From positions 1 through 29,486 of the IMG/VR virus record IMGVR_UViG_3300025133_000455: DNA of 29,486 nt; one strand, 5' to 3'. The number at the start of each line of letters is the position of its first letter. Position 1 is the first letter of the stretch. Positions 1,483-10,178 of this stretch are shown piece after piece. The translations under genes were made by a program, and so were the position numbers. The DNA is from a virus. The notes below the pieces were generated by a model that worked only from the letters and a program-made list of their open reading frames with translations, had not been told where the DNA came from and ran no database searches.

Positions 1483-1583
1483 AATTCTTTCTTTACTACA
1501 TAGAGTCACTGTTCTTAAAGTTTGTTCTTAAGGTGAGTTTATTTTTAATTAACCGTGGAGGAAAGCGTAATGAAGTGGACTAA
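1470..1583 (+). CDS. Possible 37-aa membrane peptide
   Basis: The frame begins MGQVKFFLYYIESLFLKF and contains one hydrophobic segment (residues 5-28), followed by a charged tail. GGAG at 1461-1464 is 5 bases before the ATG. It overlaps the stop of the previous gene by 13 bases and the start of the exonuclease gene by 14, filling what would otherwise be a gap. No family is recognised. It may be a small membrane protein or a coupling peptide that brings ribosomes to the next start; chance cannot be excluded. Confidence 0.45.
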   Translation: MGQVKFFLYYIESLFLKFVLKVSLFLINRGGKRNEVD

Positions 1584-2535
1584 AGCTGAAATGAATATAA
1601 TAAGTCAGTACACTAGAACTATGAAAAGTGTTAAGGATATATGTTATGAGCTAGATGATGCTGGTTTTATGCGTACATATAAATCTGTAACACGTAAAAT
1701 AGAATCTATGGGTTGGACGAGACCGACCAATCTAACAGATCTTAGTGTACTCCCAAAGATATTATTGTTTGATATAGAGACAACACCTATGCCTGTATGG
1801 GTTTGGGACTTTGGAAAGCAATATGTTCCATATACTAATCTTGTTAGAGATGACGCTGGTGAGCAAAGATTTTGGTATGTGCTATCTTGGGCTGCTAAAT
1901 GGCTTTATGATGATAATACTATATCTGATGTGCTTACTCCAGAAGAAGCGGTTGGTAGAGATGACAAAAGAATATTAGAGTCTATATGGAAAATGCTTGA
2001 TGAAGCTGATATTGTTGTTGCTCACAATGGTGATCGATTTGATATAAGGAAACTAAATGCAAGATTTATACTTAATGGTATGAGTCCTCCATCTCCTTAC
2101 AAATCAATAGATACTTTAAAGATAGCAAGGAAAGAATTTGCTTTTAGTTCTAACAAGCAAGACTTCCTTACTAAAACATTTGGTGTATCTGAAAAGCTAA
2201 AGACTGAGTTTCAACTATGGATAGACTGTATGGATGGTAATAAAGAAAGATTAGCTGAAATGCTAAAGTACAATGAACGTGATGTTATAGGTTTAGAGCA
2301 AGTATATCTTAAACTTAGACCATACATTAAGAATCATCCTAATCTTGGAGTTCTTATGGATGATAACGTTTGTCCATCTTGTGGAAGTAAGAATCTAAAA
2401 CCATCTGATGCTACATACTTTACAAGCTCTAATGAGTTTCCTGTATTTAGATGTGGTGGATGTCATTCTCCTTTCATAAGAAGCAAGACAAGCCTTAGTA
2501 CTAATGCTACAGAATTAAGAGGCATTGCAAGCTAA
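1570..2535 (+). CDS. DnaQ-fold 3'-5' exonuclease with zinc ribbon
   Basis: The protein has three parts. Residues 1-50 look like a helix-turn-helix DNA-binding region. Residues 63-250 form an RNase H-like exonuclease core: DIETT with D68 and E70 (Exo I), AHNGDRFD with N153 and D158 (Exo II), and YNERD with Y234 and D238 (Exo III). Four cysteines at 268, 271, 295 and 298 then form a C-terminal zinc ribbon. All four expected acidic metal ligands are present, so it is likely an active DNA or RNA 3'-5' exonuclease. GGAGG at 1557-1561 sets the start at ATG 1570; a GTG 15 bases earlier is less well placed. It is the last gene before the packaging promoter. Its role may be in replication, repair or host DNA breakdown. 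Confidence 0.85.
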   Translation: MKWTKAEMNIISQYTRTMKSVKDICYELDDAGFMRTYKSVTRKIESMGWTRPTNLTDLSVLPKILLFDIETTPMPVWVWDFGKQYVPYTNLVRDDAGEQRFWYVLSWAAKWLYDDNTISDVLTPEEAVGRDDKRILESIWKMLDEADIVVAHNGDRFDIRKLNARFILNGMSPPSPYKSIDTLKIARKEFAFSSNKQDFLTKTFGVSEKLKTEFQLWIDCMDGNKERLAEMLKYNERDVIGLEQVYLKLRPYIKNHPNLGVLMDDNVCPSCGSKNLKPSDATYFTSSNEFPVFRCGGCHSPFIRSKTSLSTNATELRGIAS

Positions 2536-3750: not shown

Positions 3751-4101
3751 GTGAAGTTAGCTGTATATGGAACGCTTAGGAATGGAGATAAGAATACAGG
3801 TAAGGTAAAAAACACATCACTTGTATATCCTGGTCATCAAAGATTTCCTGCTATGATACAAGATTACAAAGGTAAGGGAACTGTGGTTGAGGTACACGAT
3901 GTAACGAGTGAAGAGATAGCTCAGTATGATATGTACGAAGGTGTCAATATTGGATTGTATGACAGGGTTAAGGTTGATGTTGAAATGGATAGTGGAGATA
4001 AAGTTAAGGCTTGGGTGTATGTTGCTGGATCTCAACTATTAGAATTAGTAGACGTGTTTAAAGAAATTCCAAATGGAGATTGGTACGATAGAAAAGTTTA
4101 A
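3751..4101 (+). CDS. Gamma-glutamylcyclotransferase-like (AIG2/GGCT) protein
   Basis: The N-terminus has the family signature VYGTLRNG (residues 5-12), which forms the substrate pocket. DMYEGV follows at 60-65, with E63 in the position of the catalytic glutamate, and then the usual LYDRVKV and AWVYV strands. At 116 residues it is a typical single-domain member. Known members release pyroglutamate from gamma-glutamyl compounds; the substrate here cannot be read from sequence. GTG is the start because it directly follows the previous stop and the core begins at once. It overlaps the large terminase gene by 29 bases. Phage copies have been discussed in connection with modified DNA and peptide tags, but nothing here proves that. 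Confidence 0.82.
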   Translation: MKLAVYGTLRNGDKNTGKVKNTSLVYPGHQRFPAMIQDYKGKGTVVEVHDVTSEEIAQYDMYEGVNIGLYDRVKVDVEMDSGDKVKAWVYVAGSQLLELVDVFKEIPNGDWYDRKV

Positions 4102-5659
4102 TATAATACCTAATGACTTAAGTGAGAAAGAACGTGTTCTTAATATGGTATCTAAAGATTTAGTTGCCTTTGGACAACTGTTCTTACCAGAAGACTTTAT
4201 GAAATCAAAGCCAGCTCCGTTTCATCACGAAGTTGGTGATTTGTTTTTAAATGACACTATAAGAAGACTTTGTCTTGTTTTGCCTCGTGGTCACACTAAG
4301 TCGACTATGGCTAAAGCTGCTTTGTTACATAGGCTTTGTTTTAATCCGAAAGGAAAAAAAGAATTTGCTGCTTGGGTATCGGAAGAACAAGGTCAGGCTG
4401 TAGACCATTTAAAATATATTAAAAGTCATATAGAGTTTAACCCAGCTTTAAATTATTACTTTGGTGATATGGCTGGTAACAAATGGACTGAGAAAGAAAT
4501 TACTACGGCTAAAGGCGATAGAATTATAGCAAAGGGTACTAGCCAAAGACTTCGTGGTAGATCAGAACTTGGACTAAGATATACTAAAATTATTCTTGAT
4601 GACTTTGAATCTGAGTTAAATACTAAGACTCCAGAAAGACGTAAGGAAATTAAAGAATGGCTTATGTCTACAGTCTATCCAGCACTTGAAGAATCAAAAG
4701 GTAATGAAGGTTCTATATGGCTTATAGGAACTATTGTGCATTACGATTCTGCTTTGCAAGGAATATATGATGGTTACTTACAAGCACAAGAAAATAATGA
4801 AAAGTATACTTGGGAAATGGTGTTTCATAGAGTAATAGAGAATGATAAACCACTCTGGCCGTCTTATTTCTCAAAAGAAAAAATAGCTGGAATAAGAAAA
4901 GATTATGAGTATGTTGGGCAACTTCATAAGTTTGCTCAAGAGTATATGAATGATGCTCGTGATTTAGATAGTGCAAAATTTAAAATAGATAAGATTAATT
5001 ATTTCGATGGAGAATTTAAAGCTAGAAACAATCAAGCGTATATTGTTACAAAAGAAGATGCTATACCAGTTAATGTTTATATGGGTGTTGATTTGGCTTA
5101 TGAATCTTCAGCCCAGCACGACTACCAGGTTATTGTCGTTGCTGGTATTGATAGTGATAAAAATATTTATGTAATAGATATATTCAGAGATCATATTCCA
5201 TTGTATGATATGCCACGTAAAATATTTCAGTATGCAAAAGAGTATCAACCTATGCGAAGAGCAAACGTAGAACACGTTGGAGCACAAGGTATAATAAAAG
5301 ATGCTGTAAATGAATTATCTGGTAAGGATAGAAAGATGGCTCCAGGTATTGCAAGAGGTGTAAGACCTCCATCTGGAATTAAGAAAGAAGATAGATTAGA
5401 GTCTTTACTGTGTCCTATTGTTAATAGAGGAAAGTTATTCTTAAAAAAGAATCATAGTGATTTAGTTGATGAAATGTTTCATTTTCCAAAAGCAAAGAAT
5501 GATGACTTGCTTGACGGTCTTTGGTACTCTATTATAAATGCAAGAGCACCAATAAGTAGCAAGTTTGATGCTGATAATTTCGAAGAAGAAGTAAGTGAGA
5601 AGAGAGAATTCTTGGGAAAGAAAATACTAAGAAGTTGGGTGACAGGACAAAGATATTAA
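4073..5659 (+). CDS. terL: Terminase large subunit
   Basis: This is the ATP-driven DNA packaging motor and genome-cutting nuclease. The ATPase has a variant Walker A, PRGHTKST (71-78), without the usual second glycine but with the lysine and hydroxyl residues kept. Walker B is IILDD (173-177) and the coupling motif is LIGT (217-220). The C-terminal RNase H-like nuclease has D340 in MGVDLAY, E400 and the DDLLD cluster (477-481) as metal ligands. Length (528) is normal. The ATG overlaps the previous gene by 29 bases and has only a weak upstream purine stretch, so coupling is likely. A promoter and the portal gene follow. Metal-ligand assignments other than D340 and the DD pair are approximate. 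Confidence 0.95.
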   Translation: MEIGTIEKFNIIPNDLSEKERVLNMVSKDLVAFGQLFLPEDFMKSKPAPFHHEVGDLFLNDTIRRLCLVLPRGHTKSTMAKAALLHRLCFNPKGKKEFAAWVSEEQGQAVDHLKYIKSHIEFNPALNYYFGDMAGNKWTEKEITTAKGDRIIAKGTSQRLRGRSELGLRYTKIILDDFESELNTKTPERRKEIKEWLMSTVYPALEESKGNEGSIWLIGTIVHYDSALQGIYDGYLQAQENNEKYTWEMVFHRVIENDKPLWPSYFSKEKIAGIRKDYEYVGQLHKFAQEYMNDARDLDSAKFKIDKINYFDGEFKARNNQAYIVTKEDAIPVNVYMGVDLAYESSAQHDYQVIVVAGIDSDKNIYVIDIFRDHIPLYDMPRKIFQYAKEYQPMRRANVEHVGAQGIIKDAVNELSGKDRKMAPGIARGVRPPSGIKKEDRLESLLCPIVNRGKLFLKKNHSDLVDEMFHFPKAKNDDLLDGLWYSIINARAPISSKFDADNFEEEVSEKREFLGKKILRSWVTGQRY

Positions 5660-5676
5660 AATAAATAAAAAAAAAC

Positions 5677-5705
5677 TTGACAAACGTATGTTTTAGACTT
5701 ATATT
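5677..5705 (+). promoter_or_regulatory. Strong promoter before the head operon
   Basis: TTGACA (5677-5682), 17 bases, then TATATT (5700-5705), in the gap between large terminase and portal. It shares CTTGACAAA, the 17-base spacing and TTATATTATA with the promoter at 2539. The start site should be near 5712, leaving a leader of about 32 bases with its own ribosome site before the portal start. Confidence 0.82.
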
Positions 5706-5732
5706 ATATAGTATAGGTTAATTTATATATTC

Positions 5733-5747
5733 GGGGGATTTAATATT
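5733..5747 (+). promoter_or_regulatory. Ribosome site and probable ATT start codon of portal
   Basis: GGGGGA (5733-5738) is followed after 6 bases by ATT (5745-5747), which opens the portal frame (ITNEQDFAQIDEAQK...). The frame is closed upstream by TAG at 5709-5711 and contains no ATG, GTG or TTG before ATG 6090. ATT is thus the best-placed initiator; it is a rare start codon, known from bacterial infC, where it lowers expression. Confidence 0.6.
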
Positions 5748-7775
5748 ACAAACGAACAAGATTTTGCGCAAATAGATGAAGCGCAAAAGAATAAAGACTT
5801 ATGGAGAAGATGGCGCGATGCTCGCTCTGATTGGGATGATGAAGCTAGGGATGCTGTTGATTTTGTCCTAGGGAATCATTATACTGCAGAAGAGTCTGAT
5901 GCGTTAAACGCTGTTGGGCAGGGTGACTTTATTATAGATAGGGTCTATGCTGCTGTTGACAAGCTTAAGTCTTTACTCACCTCAAGAAATCCAAAGTTCT
6001 CTGCTGTTGGTAGAGAAGATTCTGATAACAAGATTGCGCAAGTATGGAAAACTATACTTGAGTACTGTTGGGATATATCAGATGGAGATATGGAATTTAA
6101 GCAAGTTGTCCACGACTATGCAATAACTGGTCTTGGATATTTTTATGTATATACAGATCCAGAGGCAGACTTTGGAAGAGGTGACGTAAAGTATACCCAC
6201 CTAAATCCTTTTAGAGTATATGTAGACCCAGCTGCTAGAAATAGATATTTCAGTGATGCGTCTGCTATAATACTATCTACTATATTAACTAAAGAGCAAG
6301 TTATATCTCTTTACCCACAGATAGAAGAATTTATTAAAGATATAGAAACTATGACTGACGAGGAAGATTATCCATCTTCTTCAAGAAAAAATTCATCAGA
6401 GTCTTTTACACCAGATGTTGTTAAAGATAAAGATAGTGGGTCTTACGAAAGATATAGAATACTAGAAAGATTTGAAAAAATAAAAGTTCCTTATTACAGA
6501 CTTTTCAATAAACAGAGTGGTGAAGAAAAAGTTGTTGACTTGGAAACTTTTCAAATAGTTTCTACGGAGAATGCTCATCTAATAGAATCGGGACTGGTTG
6601 AAGCTGTTGAGATTATGCAAACACGAGTCAAAGTGGTTGCTTCAATGGGACAGCATTTGCTATACGAACAAATCCTCAATACTGATATATACCCAATCAT
6701 ACCAGTCCCAAATATTTGGACTAACACTCCATATCCAAAATCAGATGTATCTAAAGTTAAAGACTCTCAAAGACTTATTAATAAGCTTTTTTCTTTAACG
6801 CTTAGTCACGCTCAAGCTTCTGCTGGTCTTAAGTTACTTGTACCAGAAGGAAGTGTAGATAATGTTGGTGACCTAGAAAGAGATTGGGCAAATCCTAATG
6901 CTGTATTAGAGTACAATCCTGAATTTGGTGAACCACATTTTCCTGCTCCTCAACCACTTGCTGGTGAGTTCTATCATTTAATAGATAGAGTAGAGCATTA
7001 TATAGATTTAAATTTTGGAATCCCAGAACTTATGCAGGGATTTAAAGAAAAAGCTCCAGATAGCGTACGTGGTACAGCTATGCTTTCAGAAATGGGAGAA
7101 AGCCGTGGACGTTCTAAGTTAAAAGACATAGAAGGAAGTCTTAATCAACTTGGAAAGTGTATTTACAATTATGCTAAAGGACATTACAAGTATCAAAAAA
7201 CATTTAGAATCGTACAACCAAACAATGATCTTACTGAATTTTCAGTAAACAATAGGTTGTATGATGACAAAACCAACGAACTGCAGACAATTGATAATGA
7301 TATATCATTAGGTCAGCACGATGTTAGAATAATATCAGGTTCAACTTTACCTTCAAATAAGATGGCGGAATATAATATGTATCTTGAAGCGTATAAGTTG
7401 GGATTGGTAGACGATGTCGAGGTCTTAAAGAAAACAGAGATCTATGACAAAGAAGGTGTATTGCAACGCAAAGGTATGATGTCTAAAATGCAGTCATACA
7501 TACAACAACTAGAGGGTCAAATAAAAGAACTCAGTGGTGATTTACAAACAGCTGACAGAGAAGCTGTCCACGCTAAGAAGCAAGTTATCACAGAGAAATT
7601 CAAAACCGACCTAAAAGAGATTAGCTCTGAGGCGAAATATAAAGAAAGAGTTAAGCTTGGAGAACTAGAAAAGGTGATTGATAAAGCAGATGTTCGTGCC
7701 GAAGCTGCGTTAGCTATACAAAAGGCGAATAAAGGGAGTTCCTCTAAAAAGGGGAGCGCACAGAATAAACAATAA
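5745..7775 (+). CDS. Portal protein, P22-like, rare ATT start
   Basis: The dodecameric portal forms the DNA channel at the head vertex and docks the terminase. If read from ATT 5745 it has 676 residues, the usual size for P22-like portals; from the first ATG (6090, residue 116) it would lose a well-formed N-terminus that includes a WRRWRDARSDWDDEARD helix. Family-like features are DRVYAAVDKLKSLLTSRNPK (about 67-86) and a conserved segment PELMQGFKEKAPDSVRGTA (427-445) near the channel helix. A charged coiled coil fills the last 100 residues. Its promoter is at 5677. Portal, scaffold and capsid follow in the normal order. Only the start codon is in doubt. Confidence 0.9.
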   Translation: MTNEQDFAQIDEAQKNKDLWRRWRDARSDWDDEARDAVDFVLGNHYTAEESDALNAVGQGDFIIDRVYAAVDKLKSLLTSRNPKFSAVGREDSDNKIAQVWKTILEYCWDISDGDMEFKQVVHDYAITGLGYFYVYTDPEADFGRGDVKYTHLNPFRVYVDPAARNRYFSDASAIILSTILTKEQVISLYPQIEEFIKDIETMTDEEDYPSSSRKNSSESFTPDVVKDKDSGSYERYRILERFEKIKVPYYRLFNKQSGEEKVVDLETFQIVSTENAHLIESGLVEAVEIMQTRVKVVASMGQHLLYEQILNTDIYPIIPVPNIWTNTPYPKSDVSKVKDSQRLINKLFSLTLSHAQASAGLKLLVPEGSVDNVGDLERDWANPNAVLEYNPEFGEPHFPAPQPLAGEFYHLIDRVEHYIDLNFGIPELMQGFKEKAPDSVRGTAMLSEMGESRGRSKLKDIEGSLNQLGKCIYNYAKGHYKYQKTFRIVQPNNDLTEFSVNNRLYDDKTNELQTIDNDISLGQHDVRIISGSTLPSNKMAEYNMYLEAYKLGLVDDVEVLKKTEIYDKEGVLQRKGMMSKMQSYIQQLEGQIKELSGDLQTADREAVHAKKQVITEKFKTDLKEISSEAKYKERVKLGELEKVIDKADVRAEAALAIQKANKGSSSKKGSAQNKQ

Positions 7776-7844: not shown

Positions 7845-8708
7845 ATGGAAGATCAAGTGCAAGGCGATGTAGTTGAACAGAATGTTGGTAAAACAACAAG
7901 GGAAGGCTTGCAAGTCTCAATGCCAGATGTAGAATTGGCTTCAGAGATTCCAAGTGTTCAAGATGGCGTAATTGACGAAGGAAATAAAAGAGCACCTAAT
8001 TTAATAACTAAAGAAGGTGACGAGTCTGAAATTAACTATGCTACTGATTGGGAAAATGAAACTAAGAAGTTTCAATCTATGTATGATAAACAGAATTCTG
8101 ATTATCAGAAACTTCAAAGTGACTATGAAAAACTTCAGCCAATGTCTGAATTACAACAGGTTCTTGAATCAAGACCAGATGTAGTTGAGGCTATAAAAGA
8201 AAGGCTTGAAGGAAAAAGTTCTCAAGAAACTATACGCGAAACAGATGATAGCGACACAGTCGACGAATCATCTTTTGACCCGTGGGAAGCCTATTACAAA
8301 CCAGAGTCAGCTTCATTTAAAATGAGGACGGCTCAAGAAAAGGCTTTGGTAGATGAGGCAGTTGGAAAACATATGTCTGATCTTCAAGGTCAAGTAGCGT
8401 TGCAAAATTTACGCAACGAGTTGGCAACTAGTTATGATATGAAAGATGAAAAGGATATTAATGACTTTATAGATTTTGCTACTACGCCAAGAGATCAATT
8501 ACCAATTGATTTGTTAATTGATGTTTATCGTAAGCATTATAATAAAGGAGCTGATAACGTTTCTCCAAATATGGAAGCAGTTAAAGCAACTCAAAGTATT
8601 CCAAGAACAGCTGGGATTCTTCAAGGTGGCGAACCACCACAAAAGAATGAACAGGATTCAGCTTGGGATAGAATTTTGCAAGCAGGGCAAGCAGGGAGAA
8701 TTCCCTAA
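7845..8708 (+). CDS. Probable capsid scaffold protein (287 aa)
   Basis: Its place between portal and major capsid protein is that of scaffolds in P22-like and related phages. The protein is acidic and polar and probably largely helical, with a coiled-coil segment at about 70-105 (QSMYDKQNSDYQKLQSDYEK) and a helical C-terminal half; no catalytic motif is visible, so a protease-scaffold fusion is unlikely. The ribosome site AAAGGAGGTT just before the ATG is near perfect, as expected for a protein needed in many copies. The 69 bases between portal and this gene hold a CTTCGAAG palindrome and the ribosome site, but no clear terminator. Confidence 0.75.
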   Translation: MEDQVQGDVVEQNVGKTTREGLQVSMPDVELASEIPSVQDGVIDEGNKRAPNLITKEGDESEINYATDWENETKKFQSMYDKQNSDYQKLQSDYEKLQPMSELQQVLESRPDVVEAIKERLEGKSSQETIRETDDSDTVDESSFDPWEAYYKPESASFKMRTAQEKALVDEAVGKHMSDLQGQVALQNLRNELATSYDMKDEKDINDFIDFATTPRDQLPIDLLIDVYRKHYNKGADNVSPNMEAVKATQSIPRTAGILQGGEPPQKNEQDSAWDRILQAGQAGRIP

Positions 8709-8735: not shown

Positions 8736-10178
8736 ATGGCTGTTACACAAGGAATAAAATCCAGTTATGATATTACAGCTGCTGCCACTAGTGCTGGTAT
8801 AGGAACCGCTCCTGACCGTAGACGATTATACGATTTCTCGGATAGGGTTGCCGAATTGGCACCTGAGGAATCACCGTTTTTTGTATATCTTTCAAAGGTT
8901 GCAAAAGTTCCAACGGATGATCCTGTATTCCGATTTTTAGAAAATCGTTCAAAAATCGATTGGTCAACGAGAGACTTTTTACTAGCATCAGCTCCTGGCA
9001 CAGTAACCGCTGGAAGTTCTTACTCATTTACAGTTGACGCAGATAGCGCAACTGGTGGTAGTGCTTCAGGTGGAACCGCACCTAGCTTTTTAATTAAAGG
9101 TATGGTATTTTCAGTAGCTTCGCTTGGAAAAAATTCAAGTGCAGGTTATTCACAGGTTTTAGTTAGAATTGAAAGTGCTCCAGTAGTTGGTAGTTCTTCT
9201 ACTACATTTACAGGAAAAGTTATTGACTTTTCTTCTTTAACTAACTCAGGTGGTGCTATTAGTGGTGAAGATGCATTAGCAGATAACGATCTATGTCAAG
9301 TAATTGGTACTTCATTTCAAGAAGGCTCAGCATCTCCAGATGCCTGGTCTAGTGAAATTGAAGATAACTATGGCTATACACAGATCTTTAAAACGGCTTG
9401 TGAGATGTCAAACACAGCGATTGCAACACGCTATCGCGGATATGCAAACGAATGGGAACGCATTTGGGCGATGAAACTTCGTGAGCATAAAGTTGACATT
9501 GAAAGAGCTTTATTATTCGGTCAAAAAGCAAGAGTAAGTTCAATTCAATACACAGAGGGTGTGGTTGGACATATACTAAAAAATGGTGTTGCACAGATTG
9601 GTGATGCTGATCTTTCTTATACATCTGGACAACCTTATTTTAGAAGTGTTGCTGATTCCGAATTAACTTACGATAGATTGCTTTCTGATATGGAAGTAAT
9701 TTTTGATCCAGCACGTGGTGGTGCAAGCGAGAAACTAGTACTTGCAGGTCTTCCTGTAATTAGTTACTTTAACAAACTTGGAAAAGATTCATTCTTAAGT
9801 ACAAGTTTATCACACAATGCTAATGCTGCATTAAGTGGTGCTGCTACTACTACTAACCAATCTCCTCACCGTATGAATATGGAAGAGAGAGCTGGTGCAT
9901 TTGGTCATAAGGTATTTACAATTGAAACTGTTCACGGTACAATGCACTTAGTCAAAGAGCCATTGTTTAGAGGTATGACTTCTAACTTTATGGCTATGAT
10001 TGATATGAGTCAAATTGCATACCGTCCACTAGTTGGAAATGGTATTAATCGTGATACAGCAATAATGTCTAACATTCAAAACGCTGATGAGGACTTGAGA
10101 AAAGATATGATTCTAACCGAAGCAGGCTTAGAAATTACATTACCTGAATCTCACACACTCTACAACGTAGAATTTTAG
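8736..10178 (+). CDS. Major capsid protein, SU10/HK97-fold type
   Basis: The N-terminal segment LYDFSDRVAELAPEESPFFVYLSKVAK (residues 31-57) and the downstream YGYTQIFKTACEMSNTA (about 212-228) match the SU10-like capsid family, which has the HK97 fold. Between them a Ser/Thr/Gly-rich beta insertion (about 86-190) replaces a more compact loop and may form a surface domain. Later, WAMKLREHKVDIERALLFG is the long spine-helix region. AGGAGGT before ATG predicts strong expression. At 480 residues it is somewhat long for the family, mainly because of the insertion. Scaffold lies upstream and a decoration-like protein downstream. Confidence 0.88.
   Translation: MAVTQGIKSSYDITAAATSAGIGTAPDRRRLYDFSDRVAELAPEESPFFVYLSKVAKVPTDDPVFRFLENRSKIDWSTRDFLLASAPGTVTAGSSYSFTVDADSATGGSASGGTAPSFLIKGMVFSVASLGKNSSAGYSQVLVRIESAPVVGSSSTTFTGKVIDFSSLTNSGGAISGEDALADNDLCQVIGTSFQEGSASPDAWSSEIEDNYGYTQIFKTACEMSNTAIATRYRGYANEWERIWAMKLREHKVDIERALLFGQKARVSSIQYTEGVVGHILKNGVAQIGDADLSYTSGQPYFRSVADSELTYDRLLSDMEVIFDPARGGASEKLVLAGLPVISYFNKLGKDSFLSTSLSHNANAALSGAATTTNQSPHRMNMEERAGAFGHKVFTIETVHGTMHLVKEPLFRGMTSNFMAMIDMSQIAYRPLVGNGINRDTAIMSNIQNADEDLRKDMILTEAGLEITLPESHTLYNVEF

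Follow-up and report, generated by a model that had tools for sequence, protein, structure and literature searches.

Comparative evidence for AUU, AUC and AUA start codons in the portal gene of a group of uncultured marine phages

Introduction

To our knowledge, AUU start codons have been regarded as a peculiarity confined to one or two genes of bacteria. One gene with a start of this kind, infC, encodes IF3 and is feedback-controlled by its own product. As established for infC, AUU, AUC and AUA are starts that IF3 discriminates against (summarised in PMC9410913). In E. coli pcnB, which encodes poly(A) polymerase I, an inefficient AUU start limits protein output, according to the work of Binns and Masters (2002) as it is cited in PMC9410913.

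Here we describe a phage portal gene that almost certainly starts at ATT and compare it with these systems. It shares with infC a start codon of the class that IF3 discriminates against, but infC responds to its own product, whereas the portal is no translation factor. With pcnB it would share an inefficient AUU start that limits output, as far as the cited account of pcnB goes. Unlike pcnB, which is a single chromosomal gene, it is a phage structural gene, and a large group of phages retains the trait, with AUU, AUC and AUA interchanging and an AUG sister clade that has short Shine–Dalgarno spacing. The gene belongs by profile to the P22-like portals (PF16510) and has their gene order of terminase, portal, (scaffold) and capsid; the distant cultured or isolate-level relatives that we compared (Thalassomonas phage BA3, Pseudomonas phage KPP25 and two Manatee Spring phages) differ in having an annotated ATG start. 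We found no earlier description of such starts in portal genes among the open-access papers searched.

The portal gene and its neighbours

The window, by which we mean the whole 29,486-base stretch of DNA that was analysed, encodes a run of head genes on one strand (Table 1). A sequence-only reading of this DNA had proposed that the portal frame is open from position 5712, has its first ATG at 6090 and contains no GTG or TTG before it, and these coordinates were borne out: an in-frame TAG at 5709–5711 is followed by an open frame from 5712 to 7775. The interval 5709–6092 singled out in that reading is the N-terminal part of a single gene. Its identification as a portal also held, by both Pfam and PHROG profiles. 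Translated from 5745, the protein matches PF16510 with 177 bits against a curated cut-off of 26.1, over residues 18–578 and profile positions 2–546 of 594. Because the match starts at residue 18, at profile position 2, nearly all of the 115 codons before the first ATG encode portal protein, in line with the earlier impression that they read as convincing protein. The gene lies between those for the terminase large subunit and the capsid, and a portal entry with 12 chains, PDB 8jov, is a sequence relative by profile match. The portal ring, by which DNA passes into the capsid, has 12 subunits in this family. No close cultured phage was found, the portal matches being about 22% identical, and a search of bacterial genomes for a relative that could name the host found none.

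Table 1. Features of the window discussed in the text
Feature	Position	Strand	Evidence and remarks
Source window	29,486 bases		Uncultured virus record IMGVR_UViG_3300025133_000455, IMG/VR; 35% G+C
RNase H-superfamily exonuclease	1555–2535		PHROG 403 (DNA polymerase exonuclease subunit), E 7e-84; PF13482
Terminase large subunit	4073–5659	+	PHROG 38, E 4e-77; upstream neighbour of portal; own start uncertain
Putative sigma-70-like promoter	5677–5705	+	TTGACA-N17-TATATT; 11/12 consensus matches
Shine–Dalgarno-like GGGGGA	5733–5738	+	Six bases before ATT; AAGGAG, GGGAGA or AGGAGA at the same place in relatives
Predicted initiation codon of portal, ATT	5745–5747	+	Column in 188 relatives; onset of coding signature; third-base conservation
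Portal, P22-like, 676 aa	5745–7775	+	PF16510, E 7.4e-52; PHROG 156, E 4e-66
Probable scaffolding protein	7845–8708	+	Between portal and major capsid protein; ATG with AAGGAGGT
Major capsid protein (SU10_MCP)	8736–10178	+	PF17236, E 4e-27; ATG with Shine–Dalgarno AGGAGGT

The open reading frame that follows the portal had no informative family match in Pfam and PHROG profile searches, and it is probably the scaffold, judging by its position. The start of the terminase gene upstream is itself uncertain. The codon corresponding to its ATG at 4073 is GCG in one clade (L039, L041, L044, L046, L053, L068, L072 and L098), a change that leaves the product of the overlapping upstream frame unaltered, and several terminases of this clade have no ATG, GTG or TTG for at least 35 codons after the stop. 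This gene may therefore be another with a non-AUG start, or may begin near Met 25.

Start codons in related phages

On its own, the absence of a canonical start over 115 codons would not settle the matter, as its chance probability, calculated from the gene's own triplet frequency, is about 0.03; the comparative evidence decides. Five scans of IMG/VR yielded some 310 loci in which this portal is present together with its start, and 188 of them remained after duplicates were removed. The same codon in related genomes was one of the checks that the sequence-only reading had called for, and it is ATT in 87, ATC in 40, ATA in 8, ATG in 50 and TTG in 3 of these distinct loci. Near-cognate starts (ATT, ATC or ATA, together ATH), with a Shine–Dalgarno (SD) run at working distance, thus account for 135 of 188. 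For 125 of the 134 distinct loci scored first, the codon lies exactly where the protein match predicts, so no choice of start was needed; two of the nine others were reassigned by hand to an ATC behind an SD. An ATG misread as ATT, the error that the same reading had wanted excluded, is refuted by independent contigs that carry the same ATT (L003–L011, 94–100% protein identity).

In a phylogenetic tree of 72 portals from which the N-terminal residues had been left out, the five start codons require 11 changes, falling to 3 when ATT, ATC and ATA are pooled. The main clade (43 rows of the tree) has 27 ATT, 10 ATC, 5 ATA, 1 TTG and no ATG. Its third base has moved among T, C and A, with about eight changes among the three codons, none of them yielding ATG; ATH looks ancestral on this tree. 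A sister clade mostly has ATG, but seven members (L240, L245, L246, L251, L252, L310 and L318) carry ATC or ATT in its place. In most of these the start lies one codon further on, so that it moved by a codon together with the change of triplet; in L246 and L247, where two ATH codons stand side by side, either could be the start.

The other genes of these phages behave differently. In scans that sought canonical codons near the expected start, the major capsid gene begins with ATG in all 124 relatives scored and the gene after the portal in 167 of 171, so near-cognate initiation is not general to these genomes.

Evidence for initiation at codon 5745

Translation of the portal almost certainly starts at ATT 5745, as judged from the pattern of substitution around it. 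Among 804 close pairs of loci, which are not mutually independent and for which we therefore give counts without a P value, substitutions downstream of the start fall at the three codon positions in the ratio 4,357/1,887/21,500, whereas those in the 15 bases upstream are flat (488/655/628). The first two bases of the start differ in none of these pairs. Of 357 pairs, 7 differ at the third base, against 375 of 2,059 comparisons for internal isoleucine codons in the same pairs, so that this base is about ten times more conserved at the start. ATA is the commonest internal isoleucine codon yet is rare at the start. An ordinary isoleucine codon would not show such conservation and codon use. In the protein alignment (A1), residue 1 is invariant and the next eleven residues are variable.

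It is very improbable that translation begins elsewhere, either in a frameshifted upstream frame or at an internal ATG, GTG or TTG, and that the ATT is a plain isoleucine codon. Near-cognate starts are rare, and a gene caller would pick a later start. The upstream in-frame stops, however, are scattered 2–38 codons from the start, mostly 4–13, and substitutions there lack a codon pattern. Internal canonical codons occur at no conserved place, initiation at 6090 would remove conserved portal sequence, and the very same column is ATG or TTG in some relatives. A leader or other frame upstream was rejected as a candidate because there is no codon pattern upstream and the window has no canonical triplet between promoter and ATT; such triplets are present in the 40 bases upstream of the start in many relatives.

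Just after the start, at 5762–5788, lies a perfect 8-bp inverted repeat, TTTTGCGC/GCGCAAAA. A hairpin formed by it was discarded as an aid to near-cognate initiation, since it shows no covariation and is absent from several ATH lineages. A phage tRNA that reads AUU as a start was likewise rejected, with no tRNA in the window and none above the cut-off in 30 related records.

Shine–Dalgarno spacing and promoter

GGGGGA followed after six bases by ATT had been proposed as the best initiation site, and the relatives agree, with an SD-like run upstream of the portal start in all 188 distinct loci. The aligned spacing is 3 in 50 of 50 ATG portals, compared with 6–9 in 133 of 135 ATH portals, as derived from pairing to a standard anti-SD, from which that of the host may differ. 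On this measure the spacing of the ATG portals would be abnormally short and that of the ATH portals normal. A combined score of SD and spacing, with a penalty of the RBS Calculator type, was −5.7 for ATH and +3.9 for ATG portals; by this model the poorer score would cancel much of the gain that AUG brings. The association between ATG and short spacing is seen in many sequences, but they represent two or three independent switches on the tree, too few to test it.

A strong promoter next to the gene was also part of the sequence-only reading, and a strong-looking one does lie just upstream, as a consensus match. Of the 188 distinct relatives, 175 show a promoter-like pattern, loosely defined, in the 110 nt before the portal, and some ATH lineages have no obvious promoter there. 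Near the left end of the window, a 40-base stretch on the minus strand (417–456) matches the region of the portal promoter, 5666–5705, at 83% identity and may be a further promoter of this kind.

Why a weak start might be kept

We think it probable, on the basis of gene order and comparison among relatives, that the portal start is used because it is weak, initiation being kept low for dosage. The strong-looking promoter would drive a transcript starting some 33 bases ahead of the start codon and running through the portal, scaffold and major capsid genes. On this transcript the initiator tRNA is expected to read AUU 5745 as fMet, making residue 1. The portal would head a late unit under strong transcription, and the products of the genes behind it are required in far greater amounts; its poor start codon would keep this 12-copy protein scarce, whereas the capsid genes, which have an ATG and a strong SD, would be made in hundreds of copies. 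Selection would keep initiation weak either way, with U, C or A but not G as third base in the main clade and too close an SD in the AUG sister clade. The earlier suggestion that a weak start beside a strong promoter acts as a dosage device fits because the portal comes first after the promoter, ahead of the major capsid gene with its strong SD and ATG, and because the ATG sister clade has short SD spacing. The ordinary ATG portals of distant cultured phages, however, indicate that low dosage does not require a near-cognate start.

We regard as unlikely a different role, in which AUU serves as a sensor and not as a constant brake, and IF3 discrimination ties portal synthesis to host IF3 or translation state, as in infC; the onset of capsid assembly would then rise or fall with portal synthesis. 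That AUU, AUC and AUA are in the class of starts rejected by IF3 (PMC9410913), and that G is avoided as the third base within the main clade, would agree with such sensing. But an AUG sister clade with poor SD spacing would cut output without an IF3 codon check, so the property that the clades share looks like weakness and not IF3 sensing. Nor does anything point to a feedback loop encoded by the phage itself, as a search of 30 related records, many of which are fragments, found no IF3 gene (PF00707). The likeness to infC that the earlier reading had drawn thus extends to the start codon and not to the feedback: the product is a portal, and infC-like feedback of this gene is not indicated.

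About as improbable, in our view, is a neutral ancestral accident, whereby a weak start was fixed once and tolerated because few copies are needed, with AUG not selected against. This would suit the apparently ancestral ATH state and the few independent switches. It sits poorly with some eight changes among ATT, ATC and ATA that never produced ATG in the main clade, with a third base that varies about ten times less than that of internal isoleucine codons, and with the short SD spacing of every ATG gene.

Discussion

Taking the weak start as a dosage device, a broader but more tentative reading is that this widespread marine phage group may, over a long evolutionary time, have kept portal initiation weak by two interchangeable routes, either a near-cognate codon behind a normal SD or AUG behind an SD at a poor distance, and so may set capsid stoichiometry at initiation; the AUH form may add a dependence on host IF3.

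As gene callers as a rule do not accept AUU, AUC or AUA as starts, the portal is truncated or misplaced in metagenomic phages. Across a large uncultured marine phage group, these codons appear to be the rule for one structural gene. A natural AUG clade is available for comparison with the near-cognate portals, and the system lends itself to testing how phages fix the ratio of portal to capsid.
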